Positions 17,128 through 62,482 of a stretch of 64,000 nucleotides of DNA are shown here, one piece after another. A program made the translations under genes and the position numbers. Under the pieces are notes generated by a model. The model was not told where the DNA came from and ran no database searches. It saw only the letters and a program-made list of their open reading frames with translations. Within the stretch, counting starts at the first letter, position 1, and each line of letters begins with the position of its first letter. This DNA is from Rickettsia tillamookensis (GTDB taxonomy: Bacteria; Pseudomonadota; Alphaproteobacteria; Rickettsiales; Rickettsiaceae). Location: contig NZ_CP060138.2 in NCBI RefSeq assembly GCF_016743795.2, positions 1,364,001 through 1,428,000 on the forward strand, written 5' to 3'.

Positions 17128-18063
17128 TTATTTAAGAAGTCTATTACTCACCAAATACTCCTTAATTTTGAGTAAATCATACCATGAGGTGCGTTTTTGC
17201 ATAGGTTGGCGTAGTAGATAAGCAGGGTGGAAGATTGCCGTAGTTTGAATAGGAGCTGATAGATATTTATTGGTATAAAAATAATATTCTTGTCTAATTT
17301 TAGTAATACCCGAATTTTTCCCAAGTAAGCTAGTTGCAGCTGTGCTACCGACTAAAATAATTAGCTTAGGGCTAATAAGAGCAATGTGTTTTTCAACAAA
17401 CGGTCTACAAATATCGACTTCTTCAAGTGTTGGCTGTCTATTAGCGGGAGGGCGCCAAAATACCGTATTAGTAATATAAGCGTTATTTTTCCGTGAAATT
17501 CCGATAGCGTGCAGCATATTATCAAGTAAATTGCCGCTTTCGCCGCAAAAAGGTATTCCTTTCAAATCCTCAGTACTTCCAGGAGCTTCGCCTATTAACA
17601 TAATTTTAGCTTCCAAATTACCATCACCGAAAACCGTATTAGTAGCAAATTTCTCAAGTTCACAACCTTTAAAATTTAGTAGAGATTCTTTTAGTTCTTC
17701 GATATTATTAGCTTTATCGGCAAGAGATCTTGCTAAGGTTATATTATCATGAATTTTATCATTCATGTTGAATGCAGCTTCTTTTGTAGGCATAGGTTTT
17801 ATACTCGTTGAACTTGAAAAATTATCTACGTCGTCTTTGTAAGACCTCGGATGCTGAACGTTTATTATACGCTCCGCTCCTCGGCTTACAGACTCCTTGC
17901 TCTTTTCCAAGTTGAACTTCGTATCCAAACCCTTCATTTCACAGGAGTATACTTGTGAATTTAACTGTAGCTTGGTATTATTACTCACTTTTAATTTCGG
18001 TGGATGCTCGTAGCAACAATATTCAACACCGATTGCACTTAACCATTTAAGCGTATTATTCAT
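17128..18063 (-). CDS. Uracil-DNA glycosylase (family 4-like) with repeat-coded insert
   Basis: It removes uracil from DNA, starting base excision repair. Residues about 120-311 carry the family 4/5 motifs GEAPGSTEDLKGIPFCGESG (water-activating loop) and FHPAYLLRQP, with NTVFWRPPANRQPT between. Only some of the usual iron-sulphur cysteines can be assigned (GCELEKFATNTVFG; DICRPF), so cluster status is uncertain. Residues about 30-89 are not family sequence: they are read from a family C repeat (17800-17975) in frame, giving a 311-residue protein, longer than usual. It diverges from rluD, whose start is 17 bp away. Confidence 0.9.
   Translation of the reverse strand: MNNTLKWLSAIGVEYCCYEHPPKLKVSNNTKLQLNSQVYSCEMKGLDTKFNLEKSKESVSRGAERIINVQHPRSYKDDVDNFSSSTSIKPMPTKEAAFNMNDKIHDNITLARSLADKANNIEELKESLLNFKGCELEKFATNTVFGDGNLEAKIMLIGEAPGSTEDLKGIPFCGESGNLLDNMLHAIGISRKNNAYITNTVFWRPPANRQPTLEEVDICRPFVEKHIALISPKLIILVGSTAATSLLGKNSGITKIRQEYYFYTNKYLSAPIQTTAIFHPAYLLRQPMQKRTSWYDLLKIKEYLVSNRLLK
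17800..17975. repeat. Family C repeat inside the uracil-DNA glycosylase gene (C1)
   Basis: It begins tatactcgttgaacttgaaa and ends gttgaacttcgtatcc, followed by the extension cacaggagtatac, all shared with C6 (54309-54462). It adds about 59 codons without breaking the frame. This is the only C copy lying inside a gene and read in the opposite sense. Confidence 0.85.
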
Positions 18064-21312: not shown

Positions 21313-22336
21313 TTGCAGCCCCGATATTTATCGATGGTATAGGAGCAACTGCTATACCGCTTACATCATGAGAGGCAGCATAATCGTCAAAAATTCTCAA
21401 ATGAGCATAAAGATTTGCAGCAGCTTCTATAAGATCACCTTTAAGGCTTAGGTTTAATGAAAACTTTCCCGTAAGCTTGCTATCACCAAAATTTAACCCA
21501 ATTTCTTTATCCTCTAAATTTGTAGCATTTAGTCTAACCGGTACTTTTGGTGAATAGTGTTTAGCAAGCATTCCAGGAGCTTTTACAGCGTCATTCACAA
21601 AGCTTGATACAAGCGAATTTTGTAGGACTCGTCTGTGCTCACGTACTAATGTACGCTGTGCAGACTCGCCCTTAAATTCATCTTGTCTGAAGCTTTGTGA
21701 ATTTAGCTGTACGTCATTTGTTACTTTAAAAACTTTTACCCCAAGTACTTCTTCTAAAATTTCAGCAGTTATAAACCCTTCTCTTAATATAGTAAGATTA
21801 GTCGTTGTAGTATCAATTATCGTTGACTCTAGCCCATATTCAGATTGGTAGATTTCAGGAGCTAAGATAAAAATCTCTTCATTATCTGAAAAGTGTCTTG
21901 TAACATGCTCGTTATTTGTTGGACTAATATAGTTTGAAGGGTTGGCACTTGGTGCGGCAATAGGTACGCCTGATTGTCTGATAAGTTCTAATGCTAGCGG
22001 ATAAGACGGTATCCGAATCGCTATTGTATTAAGCCCTGCCGTTACACTAGGAGCAATATTTGCATTCTCTTTTAAAGGCACAACTATAGATAATGGTCCA
22101 GGCCAAAATTTTTCTGCTATTTTTGTAGCTAAATCATTAAACTTTCCTATTTCGTTTGCTTGCTCTATGGAGGAGACATGCACGATAAGCGGATTGATAG
22201 CAGGGCGGTTTTTGAACTGAAAAATCTTTAAACATGCTTCATTGTTTGTAGCATCTGCTCCAATCCCATAAACTGTTTCAGTTGGAAAAACAACCACCTT
22301 ACCGGATTTTATAAATTGAACTGCTTTGCTTATCAT
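21278..22336 (-). CDS. tsaC: L-threonylcarbamoyladenylate synthase (Sua5/YwlC type)
   Basis: It makes threonylcarbamoyl-AMP, the donor for the t6A modification at position 37 of ANN-decoding tRNAs. The N-terminal YrdC domain (about 1-200) shows GKVVVFPTETVYGIGADATN, FKNRPAINPLIVHV and GVPIAAPSANPSNYISPT. The C-terminal Sua5 domain has PGMLAKHYSPKVP. Residues about 210-251 between them are read from repeat E1 (QLNSQSFRQDEFKGESAQRT...FVNDA), so the insert sits in the interdomain linker and probably spares both folds. Length is 352 residues. Confidence 0.93.
   Translation of the reverse strand: MISKAVQFIKSGKVVVFPTETVYGIGADATNNEACLKIFQFKNRPAINPLIVHVSSIEQANEIGKFNDLATKIAEKFWPGPLSIVVPLKENANIAPSVTAGLNTIAIRIPSYPLALELIRQSGVPIAAPSANPSNYISPTNNEHVTRHFSDNEEIFILAPEIYQSEYGLESTIIDTTTTNLTILREGFITAEILEEVLGVKVFKVTNDVQLNSQSFRQDEFKGESAQRTLVREHRRVLQNSLVSSFVNDAVKAPGMLAKHYSPKVPVRLNATNLEDKEIGLNFGDSKLTGKFSLNLSLKGDLIEAAANLYAHLRIFDDYAASHDVSGIAVAPIPSINIGAAINDRLKRAAKS
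21585..21708. repeat. Family E repeat inside tsaC (E1)
   Basis: It begins acagcgtcattcacaaagct and ends gaagctttgtgaatttagct. It is near-identical to E2 in ampD (60941-61068) and read in the same frame and orientation there. Confidence 0.88.
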
Positions 22337-26865: not shown

Positions 26866-28118
26866 TTAGCTTACCAAGTTTTTCTTATATGTCTCTTTAT
26901 AGAATTTTAGAATTATAGAAGATAATAAGGCAAGTGCAATTAAATAATATGCAATAGCATAATTGTCTCCGGTAACTTTCGTTAATATCATTGCTAACAT
27001 TGGAGCAGTACCGCCAAATATAGCAGCTGCAAGGTTGTATGAAAGTGCAACACCGGTAAATCTTACGCTAGTCGGAAATATCTCTACTAAAACCGTTGTG
27101 ATAGGTCCCATATAAATAGCGATAATTCCAGCAAATATTACTTGAGATATTATAGCTAAAGTAAAGTTCATTGATCCTAAGGCTAGAAAAATAGGATAGA
27201 CTGATAAAATTAACAAGATAATCCCCCATATTAGTACAGTACAGGACGACGCCCCACCTTGTCCGAAACATACGCAGATATAGGAAATACTATCATCATT
27301 ACGATTAATATTATACTACTAACAATTGTGCTTTGCTGACTAGTATAACCAAGAGTTTGCATAAAATTACCGATAAAAACCGTAGAAGTATAAAAAGGAG
27401 CAGTTACGGTAATATAAAGACCAAGTGCGATAATTAGTTCTTTTGGGTATTTTGTTAATGTTTCTCGTAAAGGAAAACGTGCTAAACGCCCTGTTTCCTT
27501 AGCTTTTTTATAAATAGGACTTTCTGCTAGGTTTTTTCTAATATATAAACCTACGGAGCTAATAAATAAACCGGCAATAAAAGGTATTCTCCAACCCCAT
27601 TCAAATAGCATATCGGCAGGCATAAAATAAGAAAAACCGGCTGCTGTACCAAGTCCAAGCAGCATACCGCCGCACATACTAACGAATGAGCTACTCCCCG
27701 CAAGTCCTCGCTGCTCGAACGAGGCATGTTCTACAATATACGAAATACAACCGCTAAATTCCCCTCCTAAAGAAAAACCTTGTATGAGTCTGATAACAGT
27801 TAAAATAATAGGAGCGGCAATACCTATAGTTTTATAACCTGGTAAGAGACCTATCCCGGCAGTCGGTATTGCCATAGTTATAATACCCATTACCAAAGCG
27901 GTACGTCTGCCGAATCTATCACCGATATTACCGAAAATAATACCGCCGAGCGGTCGTACTACAAAGCCTGCAGCAAATACCGCAAAAGTTAAAGTCTCTC
28001 GCATTTCTGAATCCGGAAAAAAATGCTGCCCTATAATATAAGCAAATTGAGCATATAATGCATAATCATACCATTCTAAAGCGTTGCCGATCATGCCGGA
28101 TATTACTACTTTTCTCAT
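26866..28118 (-). pseudogene. proP: ProP-type MFS transporter broken by a 5-bp tandem duplication
   Basis: The first 295 residues (MRKVVISGMIGNALEWYDYA...DKVGRRPVLY) and the last 116 (MLILSVYPIFLALGSMNF... to KKNLVS) are two halves of one 12-helix metabolite:H+ symporter of the ProP family. At 27233-27242 the sequence AGTAC occurs twice in tandem (GTACTGTACT on the coding strand). Removing one copy gives the continuous reading RRPVLIWGIILLILSVYP. MFS motif GNIGDRFGRRTA is intact. A very recent pseudogene; otherwise full length at about 415 residues. Confidence 0.85.
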
Positions 28119-28205
28119 TAAGTTATTTTATTGATTTTAAAGAAGATAATAAGAGTAATATTTTATATTCTCAAGTAAAAATATAATCCAAACAAAATAA
28201 GAGAG

Positions 28206-28335
28206 TAGGTATAAGAAGATCAACTTTAAAAAGAGCAAGGAGTCTGTAAGCCGAGGAGCGGAGCATACAAAAGTACGTGAGCATCCGAGGACTTACAAAG
28301 ACGACGTAGCCAATTTTTAAAGTTCATCGAGTATA
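28206..28335. repeat. Palindromic repeat family C, copy C2
   Basis: Arms gtataagaagatcaacttta and ttaaagttcatcgagtatac. It stands 2 bp after the stop codon of the 317-residue protein, with the TATACTCGATGAAC end towards that stop. Confidence 0.87.
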
Positions 28336-28337
28336 CT

Positions 28338-29291
28338 TTATCTATGTTTTTCATTAACCACTTTCTTAGTTAATTTAGCATTTATTTGAGAAGGAGAAAC
28401 TTTAATATTTTGTTTGATGTTTTTTGTTTTTTCTTGAGATAGAAGACTTTCTTTATCATTTTGTAATGTTTTCGTGAACTTATCTATATTGCTTTGTTCT
28501 AGTTTTATTGCATTATCATTATTTAAAATTAATCCTCCAATTTTTTCGCCAAGTTCAGGGGCATATCTGACTGCAAAAATCGATGCCGGTACAACTATGA
28601 TAGAAAAAGCCGCTCCTGCAGTCGCAACACTAATTGCTCCGACTAATAAAGCACAAACAGCACCGGCGATTTTTCCGGTTGCTTGTTTAAATATATTACT
28701 TTTTTGTGTAAATGCTAAAGACATCTCTAATATTTTATTAAATTCTTTCTTTATATAGATTGTTGCTTCATCAATATTATTATATTTCTTCACTGCATAT
28801 ATTACAGAAGCCTTAAATAATTTTTTATGAGATTCCGCATAATTTATTATTTTGTCAAAATTCTTCTCTTTTAAAAGAGTTTTAAATATATTTTTAATTT
28901 TTTCTTTTTCGGTACTATTTATTTTTTCATCTCCAAAATAAACTTCTACAAGATTTTCTGCTATTATATCTTGTGATTGCTCTAAAATATTATTCTTATT
29001 TTGCTCATTTTCGTCTTCAGAAGTAATCATTATTGCAAATAACTCTAATGCTACGGAAAAATTATCATCGTTAATAACCCGCATACCTAAATAATTTTTG
29101 AGTCTAGAAATACATTTATTAATATATTTTTCAGCCTCCGGTTTAGAATTAAGCCTTAGCGTATAATCTATAGCAAGCATATTTGCAATAGTAGAGCAAG
29201 TAGATTTCGTAAGATTATTGACAAAATTATTAACAATATCTTTTTTAAATAAATTAGTATTTATGTTATTAAGTACTATAGCATTATTCAT
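28338..29291 (-). CDS. Unknown protein with one hydrophobic hairpin
   Basis: I do not recognise this 317-residue protein. Residues 1-205 are helical and charged with no signal peptide (MNNAIVLNNINTNLFKKDIV). About 210-250 is a glycine/alanine-rich hydrophobic stretch (GAVCALLVGAISVATAGAAF) that could be a membrane hairpin. The tail is Lys/Gln-rich. It starts 9 bp after the PilO-like gene, so it belongs to that transcription unit and may be a third component of the same membrane complex. Repeat C2 follows its stop. Confidence 0.6.
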   Translation of the reverse strand: MNNAIVLNNINTNLFKKDIVNNFVNNLTKSTCSTIANMLAIDYTLRLNSKPEAEKYINKCISRLKNYLGMRVINDDNFSVALELFAIMITSEDENEQNKNNILEQSQDIIAENLVEVYFGDEKINSTEKEKIKNIFKTLLKEKNFDKIINYAESHKKLFKASVIYAVKKYNNIDEATIYIKKEFNKILEMSLAFTQKSNIFKQATGKIAGAVCALLVGAISVATAGAAFSIIVVPASIFAVRYAPELGEKIGGLILNNDNAIKLEQSNIDKFTKTLQNDKESLLSQEKTKNIKQNIKVSPSQINAKLTKKVVNEKHR

Positions 29292-29300
29292 TTTAGTAAT

Positions 29301-29936
29301 TTATTTTGAGGCTAATTCTCTGATATATAATATCAATTTAGCATAAATAAGATTAGGAGCATGATTTACTGAAAGTTTATATATATTCTTAGGCGTTAAC
29401 ACTTCTTCATTACGCACTCGCACAAAAGATATAAGAGTATTAGGAGGCATATAAGAATAAATTTCAGAGAATATTTTTAGAAAAGTCAAAAAATCTGCAC
29501 ATGCATATTTTACATTTATGCTATAATTATTTACATGAATCGATTCACCTTCTCCTTCAATCGCCTGAACATTATTTTTAAAAAATACTGAATTTATAGA
29601 TACATCTATAGGTTCTACTAAATCATATTTATTGCTTAAGCTTTTTATTTTAGGAATTAGTTCTTGATAATTTAAGCAACTCACATTACTTGGAACGCTT
29701 AAATCTACATATTTTTTGTAAGATTCTAAAATTTCTTCTTTAGAGTTAATGACAGAATAAAGCTTTAAAACTTCCTCTGTTAGGTTTTCTTGTGAAACTT
29801 GTTTATCAAGAATAGATTTACTGTATTCTTGCTGGAAATTTTTTATTATCCAAATAGTTAAGGAAATAAAGAAGAAATATATAATAAATTGAAAGAATAT
29901 AAGATTCTTTAAATACATAATATATTTTTCAAACAT
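29301..29936 (-). CDS. PilO/GspM-like inner-membrane protein
   Basis: The 211-residue protein has a short cytoplasmic start, one membrane helix (FFQFIIYFFFISLTIWII, about residues 14-31), a coiled-coil-like segment (about 32-75), and an alpha/beta region to the end. This is the architecture of PilO, PilN or GspM, which form the periplasmic part of type IV pilus/type II secretion platforms. I see no diagnostic motif, so the call rests on topology and on the PilM/GspL-like neighbour. Its ATG overlaps by 8 nt (ATGTTTGA) the tail that once ended the upstream gene. Confidence 0.45.
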   Translation of the reverse strand: MFEKYIMYLKNLIFFQFIIYFFFISLTIWIIKNFQQEYSKSILDKQVSQENLTEEVLKLYSVINSKEEILESYKKYVDLSVPSNVSCLNYQELIPKIKSLSNKYDLVEPIDVSINSVFFKNNVQAIEGEGESIHVNNYSINVKYACADFLTFLKIFSEIYSYMPPNTLISFVRVRNEEVLTPKNIYKLSVNHAPNLIYAKLILYIRELASK

Positions 29937-29985
29937 TATTGTTACCTTGGGTTATTAGTGCCGGTTTAGGATCAATATACTCTGG

Positions 29986-30117
29986 AGTAGATACGAAGAT
30001 CAACTTCAAAAAGTGCAAGGAGTTCACAAGGCGAGGATCGCAGCGTATACTTAATACGTGAGAACCGCAGCTCTTGTAGAACGACGTAGCCAATTTTTGA
30101 AGTTGATCGAGTATATT
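29986..30117. repeat. Palindromic repeat family C, copy C3
   Basis: Arms gtagatacgaagatcaactt and ttttgaagttgatcgagtat. It follows the stop codon of the 523-residue protein and separates it from its probable original tail (IDPKPALITQGNNNV, 29929-29985). Confidence 0.87.
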
Positions 30118-31687
30118 ACGTCTTATCGTCAACTATATTAACCGATAAAGGAATTACTACCTTACCGAATATATCAAGTATTTTATCCTTATATATAACA
30201 TAATCTATCTGCAAATTAGATAATTTATTTTTTACGTTTTGCATATGATCATCTAGCATCTTTAGAGATTCATCTACCGATAGATTATTAGTATGATATT
30301 TAAGTATTAATTTGATTATTAATTGTCTCTTAGAAATTAACAAAATATTATCTATATTTGTTAATTCCCATTTAATTTCTTCTAATTTAAAAGCCGGATT
30401 TAAAGTAATTATAAGTCTGTTAAGTAAATCAAACGGTAGCGGTACCGGTGCTTCTAGTAATTTTTCTATTACATATAAATCAGCTAGGCTAGTAGTATTT
30501 TTAATATAAGGATATTTATATTTGATACTATCATATTCTTGATTTGTTGCATAATATTTTTCATTAATGGAGTTTATGTCTTTGTAATTCTGTTTTGTAT
30601 TATATTTGATAATACCGACCACTAATATTAATATTATAAGTAATGCACTATATAATTTAAATGTCAGATCCTTTATAGTAACTAGTTTTTTTATTGATTT
30701 TAAATTATTATTATAAGCGGGAAAACTCTTATATTCTAGAAACAGCCTACTAATATTCGTATCTATAAATCTTTCTTTTTCTAGAGTTTGCTTATTTAGT
30801 ATATTATCAACCGGTATAAAGATTACAGGGCGATCTTCAAAATTTGTTGATTCTAATAAAGATTTTAACTCTTCATCTACTATAAGAATTATACAGGCTC
30901 TTTGATTAAGATTACTTATATAGTTTTTAAATAATATAAAACAATCATTAATTTCTTGTTCTATAATACCTTGAACATAGCCGGTTGTTTTACCGAATGG
31001 ATAATCAAGATTTCTAATTGTTATTATATTATTTTTATGTTTGATAATAAATTTTATACCGCTAGCTTGTGAGACATATACACAAATTTGGAAATAATCA
31101 TTATATTTATCATTTTCTATATTCTGAACTATTTTATTTATAATAACTTTTAGCTCTAACGTTAAAAAGTAAATTCCTTTTAAATCAAGCGATCTTTTAT
31201 CTATAATACATGAAATTATATCACTTAAAGGTGTTTCAAATGGACACGACATAATTAAAGTCGACCAAATTTCACTTGGTGTAGTAGTAATTTCGTAAAC
31301 ACAATGTGCTATAATGTCTTCTTTATTAAAATAACCTTCGATAAATTGTTCAATAGGATCAAGTTTAACTATTGACTGTAATATAGGTATTTGATCATGC
31401 CGTGTCTTACATTCACTACCGTCAAGTAAAAAATAAATATCGCTTTTTGGAAATTTACTAAAAAAGTTTTTATAAGGATTTAAGTCTATCTGTTCCTGAG
31501 TAGGGATAAATAATTTATCTAATAATTTATTATCGAGAAAAGTACTAAGAAATACACCTTTATTACCTAGTAACACCACGATCTTTTTTCTTTTGAAAGA
31601 AAATATTGTTAATTTTGTAACAAAATTAACAATATGTAATTTGATCGAATCAAAAATATTTTTCATAAATAAGTTTATTTTAATCAT
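30116..31687 (-). CDS. PilM/GspL-like membrane protein, C-terminus cut by a repeat
   Basis: The 523-residue protein has a cytoplasmic N-terminal part of about 340 residues starting [19 protein letters not shown], then one membrane helix ([18 protein letters not shown], about 348-366), then about 155 residues of alpha/beta sequence outside. An actin-like cytoplasmic domain, a single helix and a ferredoxin-like end is the GspL (or fused PilM-PilN) plan; I infer this from layout, not from a clear motif. The frame ends at the edge of repeat C3. The sequence beyond C3, in another frame, ends with a TGA that overlaps the next gene's ATG, so the original C-terminus was probably about 16 residues longer. 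Confidence 0.45.
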
Positions 31688-31740
31688 GATTCATTATATT
31701 TTACTATATGCAAAGTCATACCTGGGTAGCATTACCTGAG

Positions 31741-31835
31741 CCGTCATTGCGAGAAGAATTACGTAATAATTCAACGAAGCAATCTCATGATATTTGACGA
31801 GATTGCTGCGTCGCGTCGCTCCTCGCAATGACGAC
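31741..31835. repeat. Palindromic repeat family A, copy A4
   Basis: Arms CCGTCATTGCGAG and CTCGCAATGACG. It lies between the divergent PilM/GspL-like gene and alaS, the only A copy placed between two gene starts. Confidence 0.85.
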
Positions 31836-31883
31836 TCGGTATCAACGCAGGAATGACATAATATTTAAATAATATATCTTACC

Positions 31884-34520
31884 ATGACTAAATTTACCAC
31901 CGAAGAAGTTAGAAGTAAATTTATAACTTACTTTAAAGCAAATAATCATACACATGTACCAGCTAGCTCATTAATTCCACACAATGACCCTAGCTTAATG
32001 TTTGTTAATTCCGGAATGGTACAATTTAAAAATGTTTTTACCGGACAAGAAAAAAGACCTTATAACAAAGCGGTAACTAGTCAGAAATCTCTTAGAGCCG
32101 GTGGCAAGCATAACGACCTTGAGAATGTCGGTTACACGGCAAGACATCATACCTTTTTTGAAATGCTAGGCAATTTTTCATTCGGTGACTATTTTAAAGA
32201 ACACGCCATATATTACGCTTGGAATTTACTGACTAAAGAATTTGAACTCCCAAAAGATAAGCTATATGTAACAGTCTATCATACCGACGACGAAGCAGCT
32301 TCTTACTGGAAAAAAATAGCAGGATTTAGAGATGATCGCATAATAAGGATTAAAACAAACGATAATTTTTGGTCTATGGGCGATACGGGTCCTTGCGGTC
32401 CTTGCTCTGAAATTTTTTATGACCACGGTGAACAAATATACGGTGGGCTACCTGGCACTAAGGACGAAGACGGTGATAGATTTATCGAGATTTGGAATAT
32501 GGTATTTATGCAATATGAACAAATCGATAAAGATACTAGAATAGAGTTACCGCAAAAATCTATCGATACCGGTATGGGTCTTGAGCGTATGACGGCAGTA
32601 TTACAGCATGTTAACAATAATTATGACATAGATTTATTTCAGGAAATAATTAATTTTACCGAAAATATAGTAAAAGTGAAAGTAGAGGGAGAAGCCAAAT
32701 TTTCTTACCGAGTTATTGCCGACCACTTACGAGCAAGTAGCTTTTTAATAGCTGACGGTGTTATCCCTTCAAATGAGGGGCGTGGTTACGTACTTCGCCG
32801 TATTATGCGAAGAGCCATGAGGCATGCTCATATGCTTGGGTCAAAAGAGCCATTAATGTATAAATTACTGCCAAAGCTTGTTGATTTAATGGGGAATGTT
32901 TATCCTGAACTTAAGAGAGCAGAAAGCTTTATCAGCAGCATCTTAGAACAAGAAGAAATTAGGTTTAAAACTACTTTAGAACGTGGTCTAAAGCTTCTTA
33001 CCGAAGAAACAGAAACACTAATAAAAGGTAATGAATTATCAGGAGAAGTAGCATTTAAACTATATGATACTTACGGATTTCCTCTTGATTTAACTGAAGA
33101 TATTCTAAAAAATCGTAATATTTCCGTCGATCATAAGGGATTTGAAGAGCAAATGCTTGCACAAAAAGAACGTGCTAGAAAATCTTGGCTTGGCTCCGGT
33201 GAGTCCAAAACCGATCAGTTGTGGTTTGATATTAAAGAGCAGCATGGTAGCACGGAATTTTTAGGATATACGCTTAATGAAGCTGAATGTAAAATAATTG
33301 CATTAATTAAAGATAATAATTTAGTTGATGATATAAAAAAAATAGACACGCAATTTTTGTTAATTAGCAACCAAACACCTTTTTACGGTGAGTCCGGCGG
33401 TCAAATGGGTGATGTAGGTAGGATATTTGCAAAAGATTCTGAAGTAGAAGTAATAGATACTCTAAAATATTTAGGCTCTATTATAGTCCACAAATGTATT
33501 TTGAAAAAGGGGCAGATTAAAATAGGCGAAAATGCTAATTTTAGTATAGACATCAAATATAGACAAAATTTAAGAATTCATCACTCGGCAACGCATATAT
33601 TACATGCAGTACTGCATGAGGTGCTTGGTAAACATGTTACACAAAAAGGTTCTTTAGTCGCTCCGACTTATTTACGTTTTGATATTAGCCATTCTAAAGC
33701 TGTGACTAATGAAGAAATCACTTTAATCGAAGATAAGGTAAATGAGATTATTAGAGATAATCATGAAGTAGATACTACATTAATGACAACTGAAGATGCA
33801 GTCAAACAAGGAGCTATGGCACTGTTTGGCGAGAAATACGACTCTGAGGTAAGAGTAGTTAAGATGGGTGAGACTTCTTTAGAATTATGCGGTGGTACGC
33901 ATGTCAGACGTACCGGTGACATCGGTTGCTTTAAAATCACAAGCGAAAGTGCTATAGCGGCAGGGGTTCGCAGAATTGAAGCAGTTTGCGGTGAATTCGT
34001 AATTAAATTAATGAGAGAAAAGGATAGTTTACTTAAATCGATAGAAAGCAGTTTAAAGACTAACAAAAACGAACTTGTTACTAAGGTTAATAATACCCTA
34101 GAGCGTAATAAGGAACTTGAGAAAGAGTTAGAAAAAACTCATTTAGCTCGTTTAGATTTAAGTATAGAGCAGATTGAAAAACAAGCTGAAGATATAAAAG
34201 GATTTAAGCTAATTTATCGATATATAGAGAATTTAGACAATAAAGTATTGCGTCAGGCTGCAGAAAATTTAACGAAAAAAGTAGAGAATTTAATAGTAGT
34301 ATATATTACGGGTAATAACGATAAATTATCTATTACGGTTGCGGTTAGTAAAGCTATAACGGACAAATTTAATGCAGGTATAATAGTAAAAGAACTCTCT
34401 TTATTCTTAGGAGGCAGCGGCGGCGGTGGACAGCCTTCGATTGCTCAAGCCGGCGGAAATGATATAGGTAAGCTAACTAACATCCATGAAAAATTACATA
34501 GTTTATTAACAGTATCATAG
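31884..34520 (+). CDS. alaS: Alanyl-tRNA synthetase
   Basis: A class II synthetase that charges tRNA-Ala and edits Ser/Gly. The 878 residues cover the catalytic core (HHTFFEMLGNFSFGDYFK; SIDTGMGLERM), the editing domain with zinc-binding HHSATHILH and ELCGGTHVRRTGD, and the C-Ala domain ending LGGSGGGGQPSIAQAGG. It is full length and monocistronic, with repeats on both sides. Confidence 0.98.
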   Translation: MTKFTTEEVRSKFITYFKANNHTHVPASSLIPHNDPSLMFVNSGMVQFKNVFTGQEKRPYNKAVTSQKSLRAGGKHNDLENVGYTARHHTFFEMLGNFSFGDYFKEHAIYYAWNLLTKEFELPKDKLYVTVYHTDDEAASYWKKIAGFRDDRIIRIKTNDNFWSMGDTGPCGPCSEIFYDHGEQIYGGLPGTKDEDGDRFIEIWNMVFMQYEQIDKDTRIELPQKSIDTGMGLERMTAVLQHVNNNYDIDLFQEIINFTENIVKVKVEGEAKFSYRVIADHLRASSFLIADGVIPSNEGRGYVLRRIMRRAMRHAHMLGSKEPLMYKLLPKLVDLMGNVYPELKRAESFISSILEQEEIRFKTTLERGLKLLTEETETLIKGNELSGEVAFKLYDTYGFPLDLTEDILKNRNISVDHKGFEEQMLAQKERARKSWLGSGESKTDQLWFDIKEQHGSTEFLGYTLNEAECKIIALIKDNNLVDDIKKIDTQFLLISNQTPFYGESGGQMGDVGRIFAKDSEVEVIDTLKYLGSIIVHKCILKKGQIKIGENANFSIDIKYRQNLRIHHSATHILHAVLHEVLGKHVTQKGSLVAPTYLRFDISHSKAVTNEEITLIEDKVNEIIRDNHEVDTTLMTTEDAVKQGAMALFGEKYDSEVRVVKMGETSLELCGGTHVRRTGDIGCFKITSESAIAAGVRRIEAVCGEFVIKLMREKDSLLKSIESSLKTNKNELVTKVNNTLERNKELEKELEKTHLARLDLSIEQIEKQAEDIKGFKLIYRYIENLDNKVLRQAAENLTKKVENLIVVYITGNNDKLSITVAVSKAITDKFNAGIIVKELSLFLGGSGGGGQPSIAQAGGNDIGKLTNIHEKLHSLLTVS

Positions 34521-34571
34521 TGTGCTAGTTTAGGTCATCATTGCGAGCGGGTATTGTTGCGTAGATATCTA

Positions 34572-34676
34572 ATCGTCATTGTGAGAAGAATTACGTAGTA
34601 ATCAAGGCGAAGCAATTTCAGGAAATTAGTACTGCTTCATGAGATTGCCACGTCGCTTCGCTCCTCGCAATGACGG
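34572..34676. repeat. Palindromic repeat family A, copy A5, flanked by H arms
   Basis: Arms TCGTCATTGTGAG and CTCGCAATGACG. Outside them lie ggtattgttgcgtagat (34548) and ccgagccatgcaacaacacc (34680), the same H-type arms that bound the insert at 11845-12007, here around an A core. Confidence 0.8.
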
Positions 34677-34732
34677 AAAACCGAGCCATGCAACAACACC
34701 GAACAAGCCATGGTGTGACACCTGTATTAATA

Positions 34733-36856
34733 TCATAGTGTAATTAAATCCCCAAGTGCTTCTACTAATTTATGGTTATTAGCAAAATTTTCTACCTCAT
34801 TATGATTGCCGTAATGATCAAAATTTAGTAATAGTTCTTCTTGAGAATTTTTATAAAAAATGTTGGTAAATAAACGCATGTCATCGTTAATTTTAATCTC
34901 TACAGCTTTATTCTGTAAAAATTTAACTCCATTCACGTTTGTTTTGCAATATGTAATACCTTTTTCTATAGCACGAGTAAAAGAATCAATGAGGTTCTTA
35001 TCTAGCTTCTTTTCAACTTCTTTCGCAATTTTTGCAAAACAATTTAAACCTTTATATTTGCCTATAGGATAAGTATCATTTTTTTTAATGATCTGTTTAT
35101 TAACATTCCAATTACTAACAATTTGGTTATTAGTGATTTTTTGACTAATTTCAAAAAGTTTTTGTTGTTTTACCCGTTGATAATGAGCATGTATTTCTTT
35201 TGGATCATATTTTTCAATAAGCTTCTCTATATTTTCAGCGTTATAATTAACAGCAATTTCTTGTTGTTTTTCTTCGCTTAATTGATTTAAATATCCTTGA
35301 GCTTTTTCCTTATCCTTATCTAATAAAGCAGCTGCTACGCCGATTTCTAAAGCTTCTTCATTTTGAGGGGCATATTTTAAAGATTTCTCAATATTCTTAA
35401 GAGCAGCTGTAGTTTTTTCGTCTGCTATTAAAGAAGTGCTTGCAGTATTAAGAATTTCTACTATCACTTCTTCTTTGAATTCAGATTCATCGTACAATAT
35501 AGAATCAGGATCAAGATAGCTTTGTAAGACTGCAAAATTTTTATATATTTGCATATCTTTTTTAGGTATAGTTTTTAAAACATCGTGAGCTACTTCAACT
35601 TGTTTAGTATAAAGTGCAGTTGAAAGTATCAAAAGCTTATCACTTGAGAACTTAAAAATTTCTTTTAATTCTTGCTTTAATTCTTCCTTATAAATCCTTC
35701 TTTCTTTATCAGAAAAACTATTATATTTAGCAATATATTTACAACAATTTAATATAGACAAATATTGTGGAAGCAACGTATTAACATTAATAAGATTTAA
35801 TTTTTCTTTATTAATCTCATATAAATTATTTAGCATTTCCAATAAATATTTAACATTGCCTAAAGACATTTTCAGAATTATATTAGCTGCTTCTTTAGGT
35901 CTATCAGTCATTTTATAATTAGCACATAAGCTGAACATTATATTTTCATCGTTCGGCAAAAAAGATAAGGCGTATTTATAGTATTTCTCTGCTAATTTAT
36001 TATTACCGTTTACCTCATAAATATGGGCTAAACGATAAAGACAAAAACCTTTATCTTCTTCATTAAAATTAGTATCTATAGAATTATTATTAATTGTTTC
36101 TTCTAAAAGCTTACATGCTTCAGCATAATAATCGTTCTTTATTAACATCTCAGAAAGTTCATTTACTATACCAAAATAATATTTTATATGAGATGTTAAC
36201 TCTTTAGTAAATTTAACCTGAAAATCTGTTTTCATAAACTTCAACAAATAAAACAGAGTTTCCGTACATTCTTTATGTTTTGCATAGTTCTTTGTATTAA
36301 GCATTAATGTTAAAGATATATTTGCCCTAGTGAATATATCGCTTAATATTGTTTCTGCTGCTTCGGTATGATTGTTTAATATACTACAATAAAACGCCTC
36401 ACTCATTGCTTGAACTTTAAGGAAAATATTTTCTATAGGATCAAGAGATTTTACAGTAAATTTATTTTGTAAGGTATAACTGTTCTTAACATTTGAACTG
36501 AGGTTATAAAATAGTACATTCCCTTTTTGCTGTATGTTATACTTTTTTAATAATTCATGCCCTTTAAATTCGTCATATTTATAATTATTAAAAAACATTT
36601 CAATTACGCTGATTTTCTTTTCTACAATTCTCTCAGCTTCTTCATCTAAATATTTAAAAAGGTAAAGTATTGTTTCTATTGCAGCATTTACATTTTGTAA
36701 ATATGGAAGATTTTTAACTATCATATTTGCTTTAAGAGTAGGATTAATTGTTCTAAACTTATTTATTTCGTCTTTCGATAACATAGTAATTACTATATTA
36801 TTGCTAGAGTTAATATGAGAAGAATATTCTATAATGGAAGGTTTAGAATTTTTCAT
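34733..36856 (-). CDS. TPR-repeat protein, function unknown
   Basis: The 707-residue, wholly helical protein has no signal peptide or membrane helix. Degenerate TPR units are visible at about 255-320 (FCLYRLAHIYEVNGNNKLAE, KYYKYALSFLPNDENI) and about 490-560 (KTTAALKNIEKSLKYAPQNE). N-terminal helices (about 40-110) resemble a coiled-coil docking segment. The C-terminal 110 residues (about 600-707) look like a separate compact domain with GKYKGLNCFAKIAKEVEKKL. Partner and role are unknown; an effector or scaffold role is possible. Confidence 0.65.
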   Translation of the reverse strand: MKNSKPSIIEYSSHINSSNNIVITMLSKDEINKFRTINPTLKANMIVKNLPYLQNVNAAIETILYLFKYLDEEAERIVEKKISVIEMFFNNYKYDEFKGHELLKKYNIQQKGNVLFYNLSSNVKNSYTLQNKFTVKSLDPIENIFLKVQAMSEAFYCSILNNHTEAAETILSDIFTRANISLTLMLNTKNYAKHKECTETLFYLLKFMKTDFQVKFTKELTSHIKYYFGIVNELSEMLIKNDYYAEACKLLEETINNNSIDTNFNEEDKGFCLYRLAHIYEVNGNNKLAEKYYKYALSFLPNDENIMFSLCANYKMTDRPKEAANIILKMSLGNVKYLLEMLNNLYEINKEKLNLINVNTLLPQYLSILNCCKYIAKYNSFSDKERRIYKEELKQELKEIFKFSSDKLLILSTALYTKQVEVAHDVLKTIPKKDMQIYKNFAVLQSYLDPDSILYDESEFKEEVIVEILNTASTSLIADEKTTAALKNIEKSLKYAPQNEEALEIGVAAALLDKDKEKAQGYLNQLSEEKQQEIAVNYNAENIEKLIEKYDPKEIHAHYQRVKQQKLFEISQKITNNQIVSNWNVNKQIIKKNDTYPIGKYKGLNCFAKIAKEVEKKLDKNLIDSFTRAIEKGITYCKTNVNGVKFLQNKAVEIKINDDMRLFTNIFYKNSQEELLLNFDHYGNHNEVENFANNHKLVEALGDLITL

Positions 36857-36971
36857 AATAAATAACCTATAAATTTGGCGTGCATTATAAAATAAATTCT
36901 ATTTTCTGTAAAGAATAATTAATTTTTAAATGAAATTTTAATAAAAAGATAAATAGTATGATCTGCTATTA

Positions 36972-37139
36972 TTAGAGGCTATCAGTAAATAAACTTTAAT
37001 TAGTAATTAAGGAGCTTTTTTAGCGAAAATTAATAAGATTTTTGTAGGAATAGTTATTCATATTTCAAAAAAATCTTATAATTTGCAGCAAAAAAGAACT
37101 AAATTACCGGTTAAAATTTGTTTACTGATAGACTCTTAG
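36972..37139. mobile_element. MITE-like element family F, copy F2
   Basis: A 168-bp full-length partner of F1. Terminal inverted repeats agaggctatcagtaaataaa and (reverse of the right end) agagtctatcagtaaacaaa match at 18 of 20 positions. An internal inverted repeat (aataagattttt / aaaaaaatctta) adds secondary structure. It lies between truA and the TPR gene. Confidence 0.82.
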
Positions 37140-37186
37140 ACACAGTATTGTTTATCAATATAATTCTGTGATATTTTTCACAGTTA

Positions 37187-37924
37187 TTAATACTCTGCTT
37201 TTACAAAATAAAGTCCGGATGCGGGAGCGGTAGGACCGGCGGCTTTTCTATCTTTGGCTTCTAGAACCTCTTTAATTTGTTCTGCATGCCAAATATTTTT
37301 ACCGACAAGCACTAAACTACCGACAATATTACGTACCATATGATGCAAAAACGAAGGTGCTGAAAGATATAATTTTATTTCTTCGTCTTCTTTAACAATA
37401 TTAAGTTCAGTTAAAGTTTTAATCGGTGATTTTGATTGACATGAACTAGCCCTAAATGAAGTAAAATCATGTTTGCCTAATAGATAAGCGGCAGCTTTTT
37501 GCATAGCTAGAATATCTAAAGGTGAACTAATCCACCATGCTCTATTTAAATCAATTACCGATGGGTAAGGTCTATTAATGATTCTATATATATAATGACG
37601 AGAGGTAGCTGAAAATCTTGCATGAAAATTATTTGGGACTATTTCACAATGCCATACCGCTACTGCATAAGGTCCTACAAAATAGTTGATAGCTGTAATA
37701 ATTTTATGAGGTTCTAAATGTTTTGAAAGATCAAAATGTGCTACTTGACCTATAGCATGAACACCGGCATCTGTTCTTCCTGATCCAAACAATACTATTT
37801 GTTCACCGGAAAATTTATAAATCGCTTCTTCTAATATCTGCTGTACCGACATTACTCCTGCTTGCCTTTGCCAACCTGCAAGATCCGTGCCTAAATACTC
37901 AATGGTAATCTTATATCGATACAT
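37187..37924 (-). CDS. truA: tRNA pseudouridine(38-40) synthase
   Basis: TruA modifies the anticodon arm of many tRNAs. The 245-residue protein shows [12 protein letters not shown] near the start, the catalytic [18 protein letters not shown] with its Asp, and [17 protein letters not shown]. Length is normal. Its promoter region is filled with repeats G1, D2 and C4. Confidence 0.96.
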
Positions 37925-37925
37925 A

Positions 37926-38051
37926 TATACTCTGCTGATTTCAAGAATTGCTCTTTCATTTTATCAAGGATTCGCATCCTCACCTATTAAGTATAGGCTG
38001 CGGGTGCTCACCTCTCAAAATAAAATTCAATTCTCGAAATCATTTGAGTAT
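37926..38051. repeat. Palindromic repeat family G, copy G1
   Basis: Arms gatttcaagaattgctcttt and taaaattcaattctcgaaat; the left end overlaps the truA start region and the right end runs into D2. The 447-bp truA-rpoD gap (37925-38371) consists mainly of G1, D2 and C4 and has no gene. Confidence 0.7.
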
Positions 38052-38153
38052 AGTCAATTGATTTAAACGAGGTAGCACATTGTACGCCCTTTCGCCTATT
38101 ATTATAGGCTCTACCCTCACGCCTGTCGTCAAATTCAACTGAATTGACTATAA
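38048..38153. repeat. Palindromic repeat family D, copy D2
   Basis: Arms tatagtcaattgatttaaac and ttcaactgaattgactata; about 85% identical to D1 at 10360-10465. Confidence 0.85.
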
Positions 38154-38217
38154 AGGAGTTACTGCGTCATTCCCGTTAAAGTCTTTATTGGACAGATAAA
38201 CAAGAATGGATAAACGA

Positions 38218-38371
38218 GTATACTACTATGAAATGAAGAGTAGGTATACGAAGATCAACTTCAAAAAGAGCAAGAAGTCCACAAGACGAGGAGCGGAGCG
38301 TATACTTAATACGTGAGCACCGCAGTACTTGTAGGACGACGTAGCCAATTTTTGAAGTTCATCGAGTATAC
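38218..38371. repeat. Palindromic repeat family C, copy C4
   Basis: The longest C copy: gtatactactatgaaatgaa at one end, ttcatcgagtatact at the other. It touches the rpoD stop codon (38372-38374). Confidence 0.88.
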
Positions 38372-40279
38372 TTACGCCTCTAGTAAATCCGTTGGGTTAC
38401 CTTCACCACGCTTTCCACCGCTTCTAAAGCTATTAAGCTTTTTGGATCTAATAGGATGTTGTAACTTTCTTAAAGCTTTGGATTCGATTTGTCTTATACG
38501 TTCTCTAGTTACTTTAAATTGCTGCCCTACTTCTTCTAAAGTATGGTCAGTATTCATACCTATACCAAAACGCATTCTAAGCACTCTTTCTTCACGGGGC
38601 GTAAGGGTTGCAAGTACTCTAGTGGTAACTTCTCGTAAATTTGACTGAATTGCTGCATCAATCGGTGCTACTGCATTCTTATCTTCAATAAAATCGCCTA
38701 ATTGACCGCCGTCACTATCATCACCTATGGGATTTTCAAGGCTTATAGGTTCTTTAGCTATTTTCATGACTTTACGCACTTTATCAAGCGGCATTGAAAG
38801 ACGGTTAGCGATTTCCGTTGCTGTCGGTTCATAGCCGAGTTCATTAAGCATTTGCCTTGAAGTACGCAGTATCTTATTAATTGTTTCAATCATATGCACA
38901 GGAATACGTATAGTCCTTGCTTGATCTGCAATAGCTCTTGTTATAGCTTGTCTAATCCACCAAGTAGCATAGGTAGAGAATTTATAGCCACGGCGATATT
39001 CAAATTTATTCACCGCTTTCATAAGCCCTATATTACCTTCTTGAATTAAATCTAAAAACTGCAATCCCCTATTAGCGTATTTTTTAGCGATAGATATAAC
39101 TAAACGTAAATTCGCTTCTATCATATCTTTTTTTGCTTGTAGCGTTTGTCTCTCACTTTTTTGTATAGTATTAACTAGTTTTTTAAAATCATTAACTAAA
39201 AGCCCGGTATTAGATTCTATAAGCGATAATTCGGCAATCATTTGATCTATATAATCCGATTCCTTAGTAATTAACTCTTTCCAAGCGACTTTTTTATTTT
39301 TCAGCATTTTTTCTTTCCATGCTGCATTGATAACTGATCCTATATATTCATCTAGGAAATTTTGGCGAGTTACTCCGTATTTTTCAGCAAGTTTTAAAAA
39401 GGCTGTTTCTTTATTAATTAAATCACGATTTATTCCATACATCTTACCTAAAATTTCTTCTGTTCTTTTAGAATTAAAATGTATTTCTGAAACTTCATTT
39501 ATCAATAATTCCAAATTATTATTATATTTTTTGCTATTTTGTAAAACTTTCGGCTCAAAAGATTTCTCATAACATTTTTTAGCTTCAATGAGTAGCTCTT
39601 CGCAGATAAAAGAAATCTTTTTCATACGCTCTATGATATTAGGTAATATCTGCGTTTCTACTCTAGACATAGATAAGTGATTATCCTCATGCTCTTCTCC
39701 TTCGGTCTCACTACTATGTTCTTCATCATTTTCGGGTGTTTCGTCATGTAACATGTTAGCTTCTAAATCTATCAGATCACGTAGTAACATTTTTTCATTA
39801 ACTAAATCTTCATACCATACTATAAAACAACGCATAGCAATAGGGCTTCTGCATAAGGAAGCAGTCATTGTTTTACGTCCTTCCTCAATCCTTTTTGCTA
39901 TTTCTACTTCGTTTTCACGAGTTAAAAGATCGACACCTCCCATGTCCTTAAGATATAATCTCACAGGATCATCGGTAGTACCTATATTTTCTTCTTCTGC
40001 CTCATCCTCAGGTTCATTATCAACATTGGTAGATAGCTTAAATTCTTCATCCATTCCGATATCAAGCTTAATTTCATCATCTTCATTAGATTCTAAGATA
40101 TCTACTCCTGCATCGGAAAATTTTAATATAACTTCCTCTAATTGTCTTATTGAAGGATTTTTATTAAGAGGAAGAGCTTTATTTATCTCATCGTATGTAA
40201 CAGGTGTTTTTTTAGATTTAGCTTTTTTAAGTAAACTATCTATTTTATCTAGATCATTGTCTATATTGCTATTGCTCAT
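38372..40279 (-). CDS. rpoD: RNA polymerase sigma-70 factor
   Basis: The main sigma factor. The 635 residues include region 1.1 (about 1-75), region 1.2 ([20 protein letters not shown]), the non-conserved insert with an acidic run, region 2 ([33 protein letters not shown]), region 3, and region 4 with the helix-turn-helix ([20 protein letters not shown]). In many bacteria rpoD follows dnaG; here dnaG is upstream on the same strand, 209 bp away with A6 between, a kept macromolecular-synthesis order. Confidence 0.98.
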
Positions 40280-40354
40280 TAAATACCTATATGCTTTTTT
40301 CTTTTAAAAGAAGTTTGAAATAATTAAGTTATCGTGTGATTAATAAATTAACGT

Positions 40355-43524: not shown

Positions 43525-43534
43525 TTTGATTTAT

Positions 43535-43627
43535 TCGTCATTGCGAGGAAATTGCATAGCAATTGACGAAGCAATCTCAGGAGGTCTAACAAGATTGCCA
43601 CGTCGCTTCGCTCCTCGCAATGACGAC
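43535..43627. repeat. Palindromic repeat family A, copy A7
   Basis: Arms TCGTCATTGCGAGG and CCTCGCAATGACGA. It lies 10 bp after greA, between convergent greA and pntA2. Confidence 0.87.
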
Positions 43628-48158: not shown

Positions 48159-48179
48159 TAAGGCGTTTATGGTTTAAAA

Positions 48180-48270
48180 TCGTCATTGCGAGGAAAAACT
48201 GCAAGTTTTGACGAAGCAATCTCAGGATGCTTGACAAGATTGCCACGTCGCTTCGCTCCTCGCAATGACG
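48180..48270. repeat. Palindromic repeat family A, copy A8
   Basis: Arms CGTCATTGCGAGG and CCTCGCAATGACG. It lies 22 bp after ybaB; a stray half-arm (ctcgcaatgacgat) remains at 48303-48316. Confidence 0.86.
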
Positions 48271-48322
48271 GTTTGGGTGTCCATGCAACAAAACCCTCAC
48301 AATCTCGCAATGACGATGAAGT

Positions 48323-53228: not shown

Positions 53229-54320
53229 ATGCTACTATACCGAAAATACTTTATAAAAAATATCTTACCGCTGCTTATAGTCGTTACTTTTTCAGTGACT
53301 AGCATAGTATGGATAACGCAAATATTAAAACTTTTATACTTATTTGATAAAGGTATAAAAGTTATAGACTTCTTCAGTTTAATAGTTCTAGTACTTCCTA
53401 CTTTATTATTTATTCTGTTACCGGTAATAACGGTTATTGCCGTGATCTATATCTATAATAATTTAAAAGTCGAGCGACAATTAATTATATTACAAGCTTC
53501 AGGAGTTAATAATGTACAGCTAGCATTGCCTGCTTTATATGTCGCATTAATAGTTATGCTACTTGCTTATTATATATCTTCAACCATCCTGCCGTTATCT
53601 CATATAAACTTAAAATCACGTTTAAACTTTATAAAGAATAATTATATCTCAAGTATGATTGAAGAGAAAACTTTTAATAAAGTAACGAAAGATATCACTG
53701 TTTTTATAGATAAAAAATCAGCAGGAAATATTATGAACGGCGTAATAATATTTGATAATCGCAACGCCGATAACCCATCAGTAGTATTTGCGGGTTCAGG
53801 TACTCTTAATATATATGATAATAGCCCGATTTTTGAACTTAATAGAGGCATAAGACAAGAATATGACGTAAACGGTAATTTAACTCAGTTAACTTTCGAT
53901 TCTTTAATGATAAAACTACAAAATGATAATCCTTTAGTATCGCAAAGAACTAAACATAATAAAGAAGCAAACGAGTATTATATAAGCGAATTACTTGCCC
54001 CTCCTCATGATTTAGCTATTACTAAAAAAACTAAATTAATTGCTGAAGCACATCAAAGAATAATTTGGCCTTTATATAATTTTGTATTACCTTTTTTAGC
54101 TCTTGCAGTTTTTTTGAGATATCCTTATAGCAAAAAGACAACTTTTATGCCAGTATTATTTTCTGCCTTAACAGTATTGCTAGTTACTTCAATTCATTTT
54201 ATATTGCAAAATTTTGCTTCAAAAAATCTAGATTTTATTTTTGCTTGTTATTCCAATTTGGTTATTGCTTTAACGATCGGATTATATTTATTTGTACGTA
54301 AAAGAATATATACTCGTTGA
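53229..54320 (+). CDS. lptF: LPS export permease LptF
   Basis: LptF forms the LptBFG exporter that extracts lipopolysaccharide from the inner membrane. From ATG 53229 (MLLYRKYFIKNILPLLIVVT) it is 363 residues with six membrane helices in two groups and a periplasmic jellyroll between (about 135-260). An in-frame ATG at 53202 would add MTSKNQTNI from repeat-flank sequence. The C-terminal YTR and stop are read from repeat C6 (tatactcgttga). The ATPase LptB and partner LptG are not in this window. Confidence 0.93.
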   Translation: MLLYRKYFIKNILPLLIVVTFSVTSIVWITQILKLLYLFDKGIKVIDFFSLIVLVLPTLLFILLPVITVIAVIYIYNNLKVERQLIILQASGVNNVQLALPALYVALIVMLLAYYISSTILPLSHINLKSRLNFIKNNYISSMIEEKTFNKVTKDITVFIDKKSAGNIMNGVIIFDNRNADNPSVVFAGSGTLNIYDNSPIFELNRGIRQEYDVNGNLTQLTFDSLMIKLQNDNPLVSQRTKHNKEANEYYISELLAPPHDLAITKKTKLIAEAHQRIIWPLYNFVLPFLALAVFLRYPYSKKTTFMPVLFSALTVLLVTSIHFILQNFASKNLDFIFACYSNLVIALTIGLYLFVRKRIYTR

Positions 54321-60502: not shown

Positions 60503-61375
60503 TTAATTACTTAACTCAGATTTATATTTCAATATTAATGCATCTAAAATTGCTATGGTTTCAGCATCCAAATCGCCGGAAAAATTACTAGGACGAAAAT
60601 GCATTTGAAACGAAATTATAACATCTTTCATTTTAGAGTCGAGAATTCCGTTAGCCTCAAGTTTATAACCGTATATAATAAATTTTTGTTGAATTGCTTT
60701 AATATCAGTTATGTCGATTTGCGGCAATAGATCGTTAAATACTTGTTCATCATACCAAGCTCCAATATCGTTATCATATAATAGTTTCCAAGGAAATAGC
60801 GGTCCAGGGTCCTGTTTTCTACCTGGGGCAATATCAGAATGCCCAACCACTCTAGTAGGTTTAATATCATATCGAGCAATAATCTGTTTACACAAACTTA
60901 TAACACTATTAATTTGTGCTTCCGAATAAGGCAACCAAATTACAGCGTCATTCACAAAGCTTGATACAGGCGAATTTTTTGAGTTAAGTCTGTGCTCACG
61001 TACTTTTGTACGCTCCGCAGACTTACTCTTAAATTCATCCTGTCTGAAGCTTTGTGAATTTAGCTGCATATTATGATTTTTTGTATTTACTTCAAAAGCA
61101 GGATTTACGATTTCAATACCGATTGATGTATCATTAATACGCTCATGACCTTGCCAATAACTCACTCCGGCATGCCATGCTCTATCATGCTCTTCTACTA
61201 GCTGGAATATATGTTCAGGGTTTTCATCGTTTATTAAATAATGGCTACTTAGCTTTTCACCGGTTAGAAAGTCTAAGGATTGCTTAAAATCACACTGCGT
61301 ATAATGTAGCACTAGGAATTTAATACGTTTATCAAACCCCACAGCCCTATAAGATGTTTTATCGATTACTATCAT
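60503..61375 (-). CDS. ampD: N-acetylmuramoyl-L-alanine amidase (AmpD-like) with repeat-coded insert
   Basis: It cleaves the amide between muramic acid and peptide in wall recycling. Residues about 20-200 are the amidase_2 domain: FLVLHYTQCDFKQS, AWHAGVSYWQGHERIN, SIGIEIVN and VVGHSDIAPGRKQDPGPLFP (zinc His and the catalytic Lys-Asp). Residues about 103-146 (QLNSQSFRQDEFKSKSAERT...FVNDA) are read from repeat E2, inside the domain. The C-terminal 70 residues resemble a peptidoglycan-binding domain (IKAIQQKFIIYGYKLEANGI). No signal peptide, so cytoplasmic AmpD-type. Confidence 0.9.
   Translation of the reverse strand: MIVIDKTSYRAVGFDKRIKFLVLHYTQCDFKQSLDFLTGEKLSSHYLINDENPEHIFQLVEEHDRAWHAGVSYWQGHERINDTSIGIEIVNPAFEVNTKNHNMQLNSQSFRQDEFKSKSAERTKVREHRLNSKNSPVSSFVNDAVIWLPYSEAQINSVISLCKQIIARYDIKPTRVVGHSDIAPGRKQDPGPLFPWKLLYDNDIGAWYDEQVFNDLLPQIDITDIKAIQQKFIIYGYKLEANGILDSKMKDVIISFQMHFRPSNFSGDLDAETIAILDALILKYKSELSN
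60941..61068. repeat. Family E repeat inside ampD (E2)
   Basis: It begins acagcgtcattcacaaagct and ends gaagctttgtgaatttagct, like E1 in tsaC; read in frame. Confidence 0.88.
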
Positions 61376-61595: not shown

Positions 61596-61690
61596 TCGTC
61601 ATTGCGAGAAGAATTACGTAGTAATTCGACAAAGCAATCTCAGGATGTTTTACGAGATTGCCACGTCGCTTCGCTCCTCGCAATGACGAA
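61596..61690. repeat. Palindromic repeat family A, copy A11
   Basis: Arms ATCGTCATTGCGAG and CTCGCAATGACGA. It lies 13 bp downstream of rpsP. Confidence 0.86.
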
Positions 61691-62355: not shown

Positions 62356-62482
62356 AGTAACGAAGTTTTATTTGGAAAAGAGCAAGGAGTTTATAAGTCG
62401 AGTAGCGGAGCGTATACTAAATACGTGAGCACCGCAGAACTTATAAGACGACGTAGCCAATTTTCCAAATAAAACGAGTTAC
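62356..62482. repeat. Palindromic repeat family C, copy C7 (variant)
   Basis: Arms gtaacgaagttttatttgga and tccaaataaaacgagttac; the middle matches other C copies (gaagagcaaggag; gacgacgtagccaattttt). The mutL stop codon (62479-62481) lies in its end. Confidence 0.82.

Follow-up and report, generated by a model that had tools for sequence, protein, structure and literature searches.

Seven copies of a palindromic repeat in the window

The segment between rpoD and truA carries a palindromic repeat, C4, which is one of seven copies (C1 to C7) of the same family in the window, that is, the whole 64,000-nucleotide stretch of Rickettsia tillamookensis DNA analyzed here. One copy lies inside ung, while the six others abut the stop codons of rpoD, a 317-aa gene matching Pfam RP853 along its entire length (a match indicative of the genus Rickettsia), a 523-aa gene, a PhnP-like metallo-beta-lactamase gene, lptF, and mutL. 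All six contacts claimed for these copies in the earlier note were found at the distances given in Table 1.

Table 1. Repeat copies in the window, with their positions, strands, and relation to neighboring genes
Feature	Position	Strand	Relation to genes
RPE5 copy C1	17800..17951	(+)	Inside ung (17128-18063, minus strand), antisense; encodes RPE5 domain, ung residues 43-85
RPE5 copy C2	28208..28335	(-)	+2 nt from stop of 317-aa RP853-like gene
RPE5 copy C3	29989..30115	(-)	0 nt from 523-aa gene stop; target TAATATT in G011 and G018
RPE5 copy C4	38219..38370	(-)	Full length to GTATA right end; left end 1 nt past rpoD stop (38372-38374)
RPE5 copy C5	51512..51658	(-)	+2 nt from stop of PhnP-like metallo-beta-lactamase gene
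RPE5 copy C6	54309..54462	(+)	Inserted at TA of lptF stop TAA
Stop-restoring left end of C6, TAT ACT CGT TGA	54309..54320	(+)	TGA 54318-54320 (element positions 10-12), the present lptF stop
RPE5 copy C7	62355..62482	(-)	Eroded left end GTAACTCG overlaps mutL TAA stop (62479-62481)
Palindromic element TATACTCTGCTGATTTC...GAGTATA	37925-38053	(+)	Between rpoD and truA, directly beside truA start codon
Further palindromic element	38048-38155		Between rpoD and truA
Repeat family GTCATTCACAAAGCTTGATACA...	21583-21709, 60940-61066
Repeat family GTCATTGCGAG...CTCGCAATGACG	2881-2973, 31742-31834, 43534-43626, 48179-48271, 61597-61689

Identity, ends, and fold of the element

The family corresponds to RPE5, a Rickettsia palindromic element (RPE): the ung copy matches NCBIfam TIGR03776 over 43/43 positions with 80.3 bits against a cut-off of 29.45, a match that rests on this copy as the scanned example of the in-gene copies. 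In the four copies lying within long frames (284-709 aa) the gene is read from the strand opposite the element, and the long open frame of that opposite strand is the RPE5 domain in ung. The whole genome, a single contig of 1,438,972 bp, was searched with a covariance model made from 31 copies. This gave 109 matches, 90 of which score at least 62.9 bits, the next one reaching 46.8 bits; the 19 weak matches (46.8 to 25.3 bits), several of which belong to another TA-ended family, were excluded from the 90.

Read from left to right, RPE5 has the layout TATACTCG(A/T)TGAACTTCAAAAATTGG ... CTTTTTGAAGTTGATCTTCGTATAC over about 126 bp, and complete copies extend to about 152 bp with a right extension ending in GAGTATA. 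A simple pattern detects this right end in 27/90 copies, which is probably an undercount; as the regular expression overlooks some full-length ends (e.g., 52300), right ends were audited by eye. The TATACTC...GAGTATA ends and the paired arms constitute the terminal inverted repeats expected of a MITE, and stop codons are found near both termini. The consensus forms a single long imperfect hairpin supported by covariation, with 83 two-sided versus about 11 one-sided cells among 961 and a mean of 23 two-sided cells in shuffles. In the paired arms a Watson-Crick pair is almost always replaced by a different one, one-sided and G-U states being few, and the palindrome looks as if it were corrected at the DNA level.

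Other palindromic repeats accompany RPE5. The two additional elements stacked between rpoD and truA include a distant RPE5 relative (37925-38053). The GTCATTCACAAAGCTTGATACA family lies inside frames in 11/19 end-to-end copies, like coding RPE families, while the GTCATTGCGAG...CTCGCAATGACG family, in either orientation, typically follows stops at 7-60 nt, a placement unlike that of RPE5. RPE5 itself also occurs at RNA genes: the permuted tmRNA gene (Rfam RF01849, RF04321) contains a copy both here and in the distant congener G004 (L010:1499-1627, L187:1724-1852), and the copy at G000:11858 of this genome (L051:1784-1860) starts next to the 5' end of an opposite-strand tRNA gene, about 3 nt away.

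Genome-wide position relative to stop codons

For each of the 90 copies, the flanking sequence was examined together with every open frame of at least 80 codons; the genes referred to below are these frames, not annotated genes. The left end, TATACTCG, faces the stop of the neighboring gene in 61/90 copies, and in 50 of these 61 the last base of the stop falls no deeper than 14 nt within the element and no farther than 4 nt ahead of it (-14..+4), an interval picked after the data had been seen and applied unchanged to the controls. Inside the element the stop ends at -13 in 5 copies, at -12 in 12, at -9, -4, and -3 in 1 each, and at -2 in 2; at or before its end the counts are 10 at 0, 9 at +1, 5 at +2, and 2 each at +3 and +4. 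The contacting copies are evenly divided between the plus (24) and minus (26) strands. As to context, both neighbors share the element's direction for 44 of the 90 copies and have the opposite direction for 12; 16 copies are flanked by convergent and 9 by divergent genes, 8 fall inside frames, and one has no right neighbor in the stretch.

The right end faces a stop in 28 copies. In 13 of them, as judged by eye, this stop falls within the right-hand portion of the element or no more than 4 nt past it; 6 of these 13 are convergent pairs with stops at both ends. At least one end meets a stop in 57/90 copies. Contacts are thus made by left and right ends in 50 versus 13 cases (binomial p 3e-6), insertions 0-4 nt after a stop are left end first in 28 cases and right end first in 3, and between convergent genes 8 copies make contact by the left end only and one by the right end only. 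The polarity of RPE5 toward stops is partial, as right ends also meet stops. Hence the earlier statement that the family "always" abuts a stop "in the same orientation" overstates the genome-wide situation, in which the left end is without stop contact in 40/90 copies and 13/28 right-facing ends meet stops.

Empty sites in related genomes and stop replacement

Comparison with relatives lacking the element, as suggested in the earlier note, shows that the stop, or at least the final few codons of the gene, is present there even without the element. The end of lptF reads AAA AGA ATA TAA in G009, G001, and G018 and AAA AGA ATA TAT ACT CGT TGA here, so the TA of the former stop was the target and the TGA of the element is the present stop. 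The PhnP-like gene is followed in four relatives by a three-base spacer (TAG TTT ATG), which is the target within which C5 sits. The 523-aa gene ends with TAATATT in G011 and G018 and with TAATATACTCG here and in G001. At the rpoD site relatives read TGATAACACTT, and G003 has an RPE5 copy directly 3' of its own rpoD TGA, while the mutL copy is old, with remnants common to relatives. The ung site reads GTTTTACTTG in four relatives, and TA flanks both sides of the insert here. A single TA in the empty site and a TA on both sides of the filled one were observed at four sites (ung, lptF, 788031, and G003:1473879), a pattern of TA duplication in which the last TA could equally belong to the element, as the data do not separate the two cases.

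Stop replacement is seen at lptF, at the copy at 1261151, and at one G003 copy. Where the ancestral stop lay a few codons beyond the insertion, a near-equal length is restored, as in GAG AAA GCT GTG GAG TAG versus GAG AAA AGT ATA CTC GTT TAA and in GGA TAT AGT AAA TAG versus GGA TAT ACT CGA TGA. Copy 788031, inserted 24 nt ahead of the old stop, gives a longer tail.

The 90 sites were also looked up in G003 (rpoD 97% identical), where 26 are filled, 8 are empty, 16 have another insert in the spacer, and 40 are unmappable. Such inserts, mostly of another RPE family, stand at 16 of the 24 sites without RPE5 in G003, and the short spacers are recurrent insertion sites. Among facing stops, those near the element amount to 15/18 at sites unfilled in G003 and 13/17 at filled ones, bearing in mind that some of the unfilled sites reflect a loss or an older insertion (remnants of 1270315 and 1426355 persist in G003, and 1393988 is also present in G001). 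These data bear on an erosion scenario in which copies would have landed anywhere downstream of a gene and deletions would then have removed the DNA separating stop and element. Reductive genomes do lose spacer DNA, in line with such a scenario. However, in relatives that lack the element a TA lies at the stop or next to it, and sites unfilled in G003 are as close to stops as the common ones; since the relatives' stops were already in place, the adjacency did not come from later erosion, which is largely refuted by the empty sites and which we reject as very improbable. The stop rule is real and, judging from the empty sites, was present at insertion, which supports the idea, raised in the earlier note, of a preferred site near stops.

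Chance expectation and controls

With TA sites drawn from about 400 kb of five relatives as a null, 217 of 18,316 spacer choices of TA site and orientation lie 0..+4 after a facing stop (1.2%), compared with 28/90 copies. Extending the range from within the stop to +4 raises the expectation to 482/18,316 TA choices outside frames (2.6%). The genome-wide survey of distance and orientation thus gives an approximately 25-fold excess at 0..+4 and an uneven use of the two ends; neither a lack of excess near stops nor an equal representation of both orientations, the outcomes that would have contradicted the initial proposal, was found. This suggests that RPE5 favors gene ends over random insertion.

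Given the spacer that each copy occupies, the picture is less extreme. When a TA was chosen at random within each copy's spacer, 21-34/60 contacts were expected and 50 were seen (a count in which one stop reads 43 nt into the element and from which one near copy at the end of the stretch is omitted), and in none of the six settings did any of 20,000 simulations attain 50. Since the excess given an occupied spacer is only 1.5-2.3 fold, with a median spacer of 23-50 bp, much of the stop effect is RPE5 occupying very short gene junctions. This spacer-conditional result is the main evidence against strict recognition of stops.

It also lends weight to the view that RPE5 enters any TA and that mainly insertions at gene ends survive, the ends of the element carrying stops and the genome being packed. 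The very short host spacers, which place 21-34/60 copies near a stop anyway, the near-terminal stops in both ends of RPE5, and the short replacement tails left by insertions in last codons are all consistent with survivorship alone. Against it, two other RPE families of these genomes do well at 5-60 nt from the preceding stop, a range where RPE5 is rare. Furthermore, an insertion that follows a stop by 0-4 nt does not have to restore one, yet this class shows the marked left-first asymmetry described above. We regard survivorship alone as a serious but fairly unlikely account.

The two other RPE families, examined with the same gene calls, have 1/120 and 7/122 of their facing stops within -14..+4 and a further 6 and 2 below -14, the median distances being 25 and 49 nt; some of these control copies are orthologous across genomes and are not independent. 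A similar script applied to RPE5 gave 51/64 for the left end and 2/28 for the right end, the right extension being excluded. The preference recurs in the distant congener G004 (rpoD 83%), with 15/20 facing stops near the element among 31 copies examined of 48 matches. In G003, 18/41 copies are at stops among the matches listed (41 of 59), many of them shared with this genome. A related TA-ended family, "E", has 4/6 left-facing stops at -1..+4, in small numbers.

A DNA motif around stop codons could also be the target, the genes themselves being irrelevant, as TAA and TAG include the TA dinucleotide. Yet TA sites are abundant in spacers, and the 27 copies classed as "other" are not visibly enriched in stop triplets ahead of the element, as assessed by eye, so that we give this reading hardly any credence.

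Terminator and RNA function

The hairpin might instead stabilize or end the message, or set up translation of the next gene, and be kept by stops for this reason. It is strong (z -5.9 and -6.4), its covariation exceeds that of shuffles, and in six co-directional copies, as seen by eye, a GGAG from the right end precedes the next start by no more than about 15 nt. However, a scan for terminator-like sites, i.e., a short G+C-rich stem followed by a T run, found none at three RPE5 copies (window 28000-40300), and the two strands of one copy fold about equally (-45.2 and -49.5 kcal/mol). As 44/90 copies lie between co-directional genes, many of them a few tens of nucleotides from the next start, a strong terminator should be costly to the next gene. 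The terminator role that had been proposed for the element thus finds no support in these three observations. Moreover, the scarcity of one-sided changes and G-U intermediates fits upkeep of a palindrome at the DNA level at least as well, and the polarity also holds between convergent genes, where there is no next start. A functional 3' element is, in our view, quite improbable. The convergent-gene polarity likewise cannot be explained by the right end supplying a ribosome site, which we rejected as the cause of polarity; such a supply by the right-end GGAG is a possible contributor.

Proposed mode of placement

The explanation that we favor, with somewhat better than even confidence, is that RPE5 is a non-autonomous, MITE-like palindromic element inserting at TA with a preference for gene ends and a polarity present at insertion, followed by a survival filter. 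RPE5 inserts at TA dinucleotides and duplicates them, as seen at the four sites above, preferably at a stop codon or within about 10 bases of one, as the relatives lacking it show, and usually with its TATACTCG(N)TGA end toward the gene. An insertion into the TA of a TAA or TAG stop, or into a TA in the same register within the last codons, changes the frame to TAT ACT CGN TGA, and the gene ends three codons later with little lost, as at lptF, 1261151, and the G003 copy; TTTAA variants have an equivalent effect in the next frame. The bias may arise at insertion through a putative mobilizing activity favoring gene ends with polarity. Survival would act next, the stops near both ends rendering insertions nearly harmless, helped perhaps by a right-end GGAG upstream of the following start codon. 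The transposase domain PF13358 was not found in this genome; PF01797 was not found in five genomes and occurs only in a broken form in G017. An unlikely version couples RPE5 insertion to translation termination, with exposed nascent RNA or single-stranded DNA marking both the stop and the direction. If true, the element would locate where unrelated genes end, in a single polarity and with no need of a sequence motif.

RPEs are selfish repeats that invade protein-coding genes. RPE5 instead concentrates at stops, mostly in one polarity, and can bring a replacement stop, a precise mode of life in a packed genome. Some annotated Rickettsia stops and C-termini thereby derive from RPE5, and each genome offers dozens of natural insertions for testing sequence-independent targeting of gene ends.

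Comparison with known repeats

The excerpt of PMC2267715 available describes Rpe-5 of R. conorii as a 115 bp intergenic repeat with 45-55 copies and a predicted common structure. The copies analyzed here fit this class, with 90 palindromic copies of about 115-150 bp that are mostly non-genic (8/90 inside frames), and the ung copy of the window encodes the RPE5 domain end to end. They differ from described RPE5 by their stop-centered position, polarity, and TA duplication, features absent from the descriptions found; no report of them for RPE5 was found in the literature searched, and an earlier one in the primary RPE paper is possible. In the part of PMC2229807 consulted, target duplication of RPEs is marked "?" and TA termini "+/-".

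RPE5 resembles the enterobacterial ERIC/RU-1 and pneumococcal RUP MITEs, which are short and hairpin-forming, with TA ends and TA duplication (PMC2759123, PMC2229807). One RU-1 copy deprived an amidase gene of its normal stop (PMC2759123), whereas the sections consulted do not mention any general stop-codon rule with polarity for these elements. Like RPE5, SPRITE of Streptococcus pneumoniae is a small repeat enriched near gene 3' ends (PMC3049150). According to the same excerpt, however, SPRITE has a stem and a T-rich tract and is thought to be a terminator, which the scanned RPE5 copies did not reveal, and it is without established target duplication, in contrast to the TA duplication at four RPE5 sites. 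QMITE2 in enhC of Coxiella burnetii is likewise a MITE at a gene 3' end, with the stop just before or after it (PMC5896051), but the available text presents a single case, in which the stop of one strain is attributed to an indel. Finally, insertion hot spots common to RPE-4, -6, and -7 have already been raised in the part of PMC3767692 consulted, and the 16 G003 spacers holding another insert agree with them.
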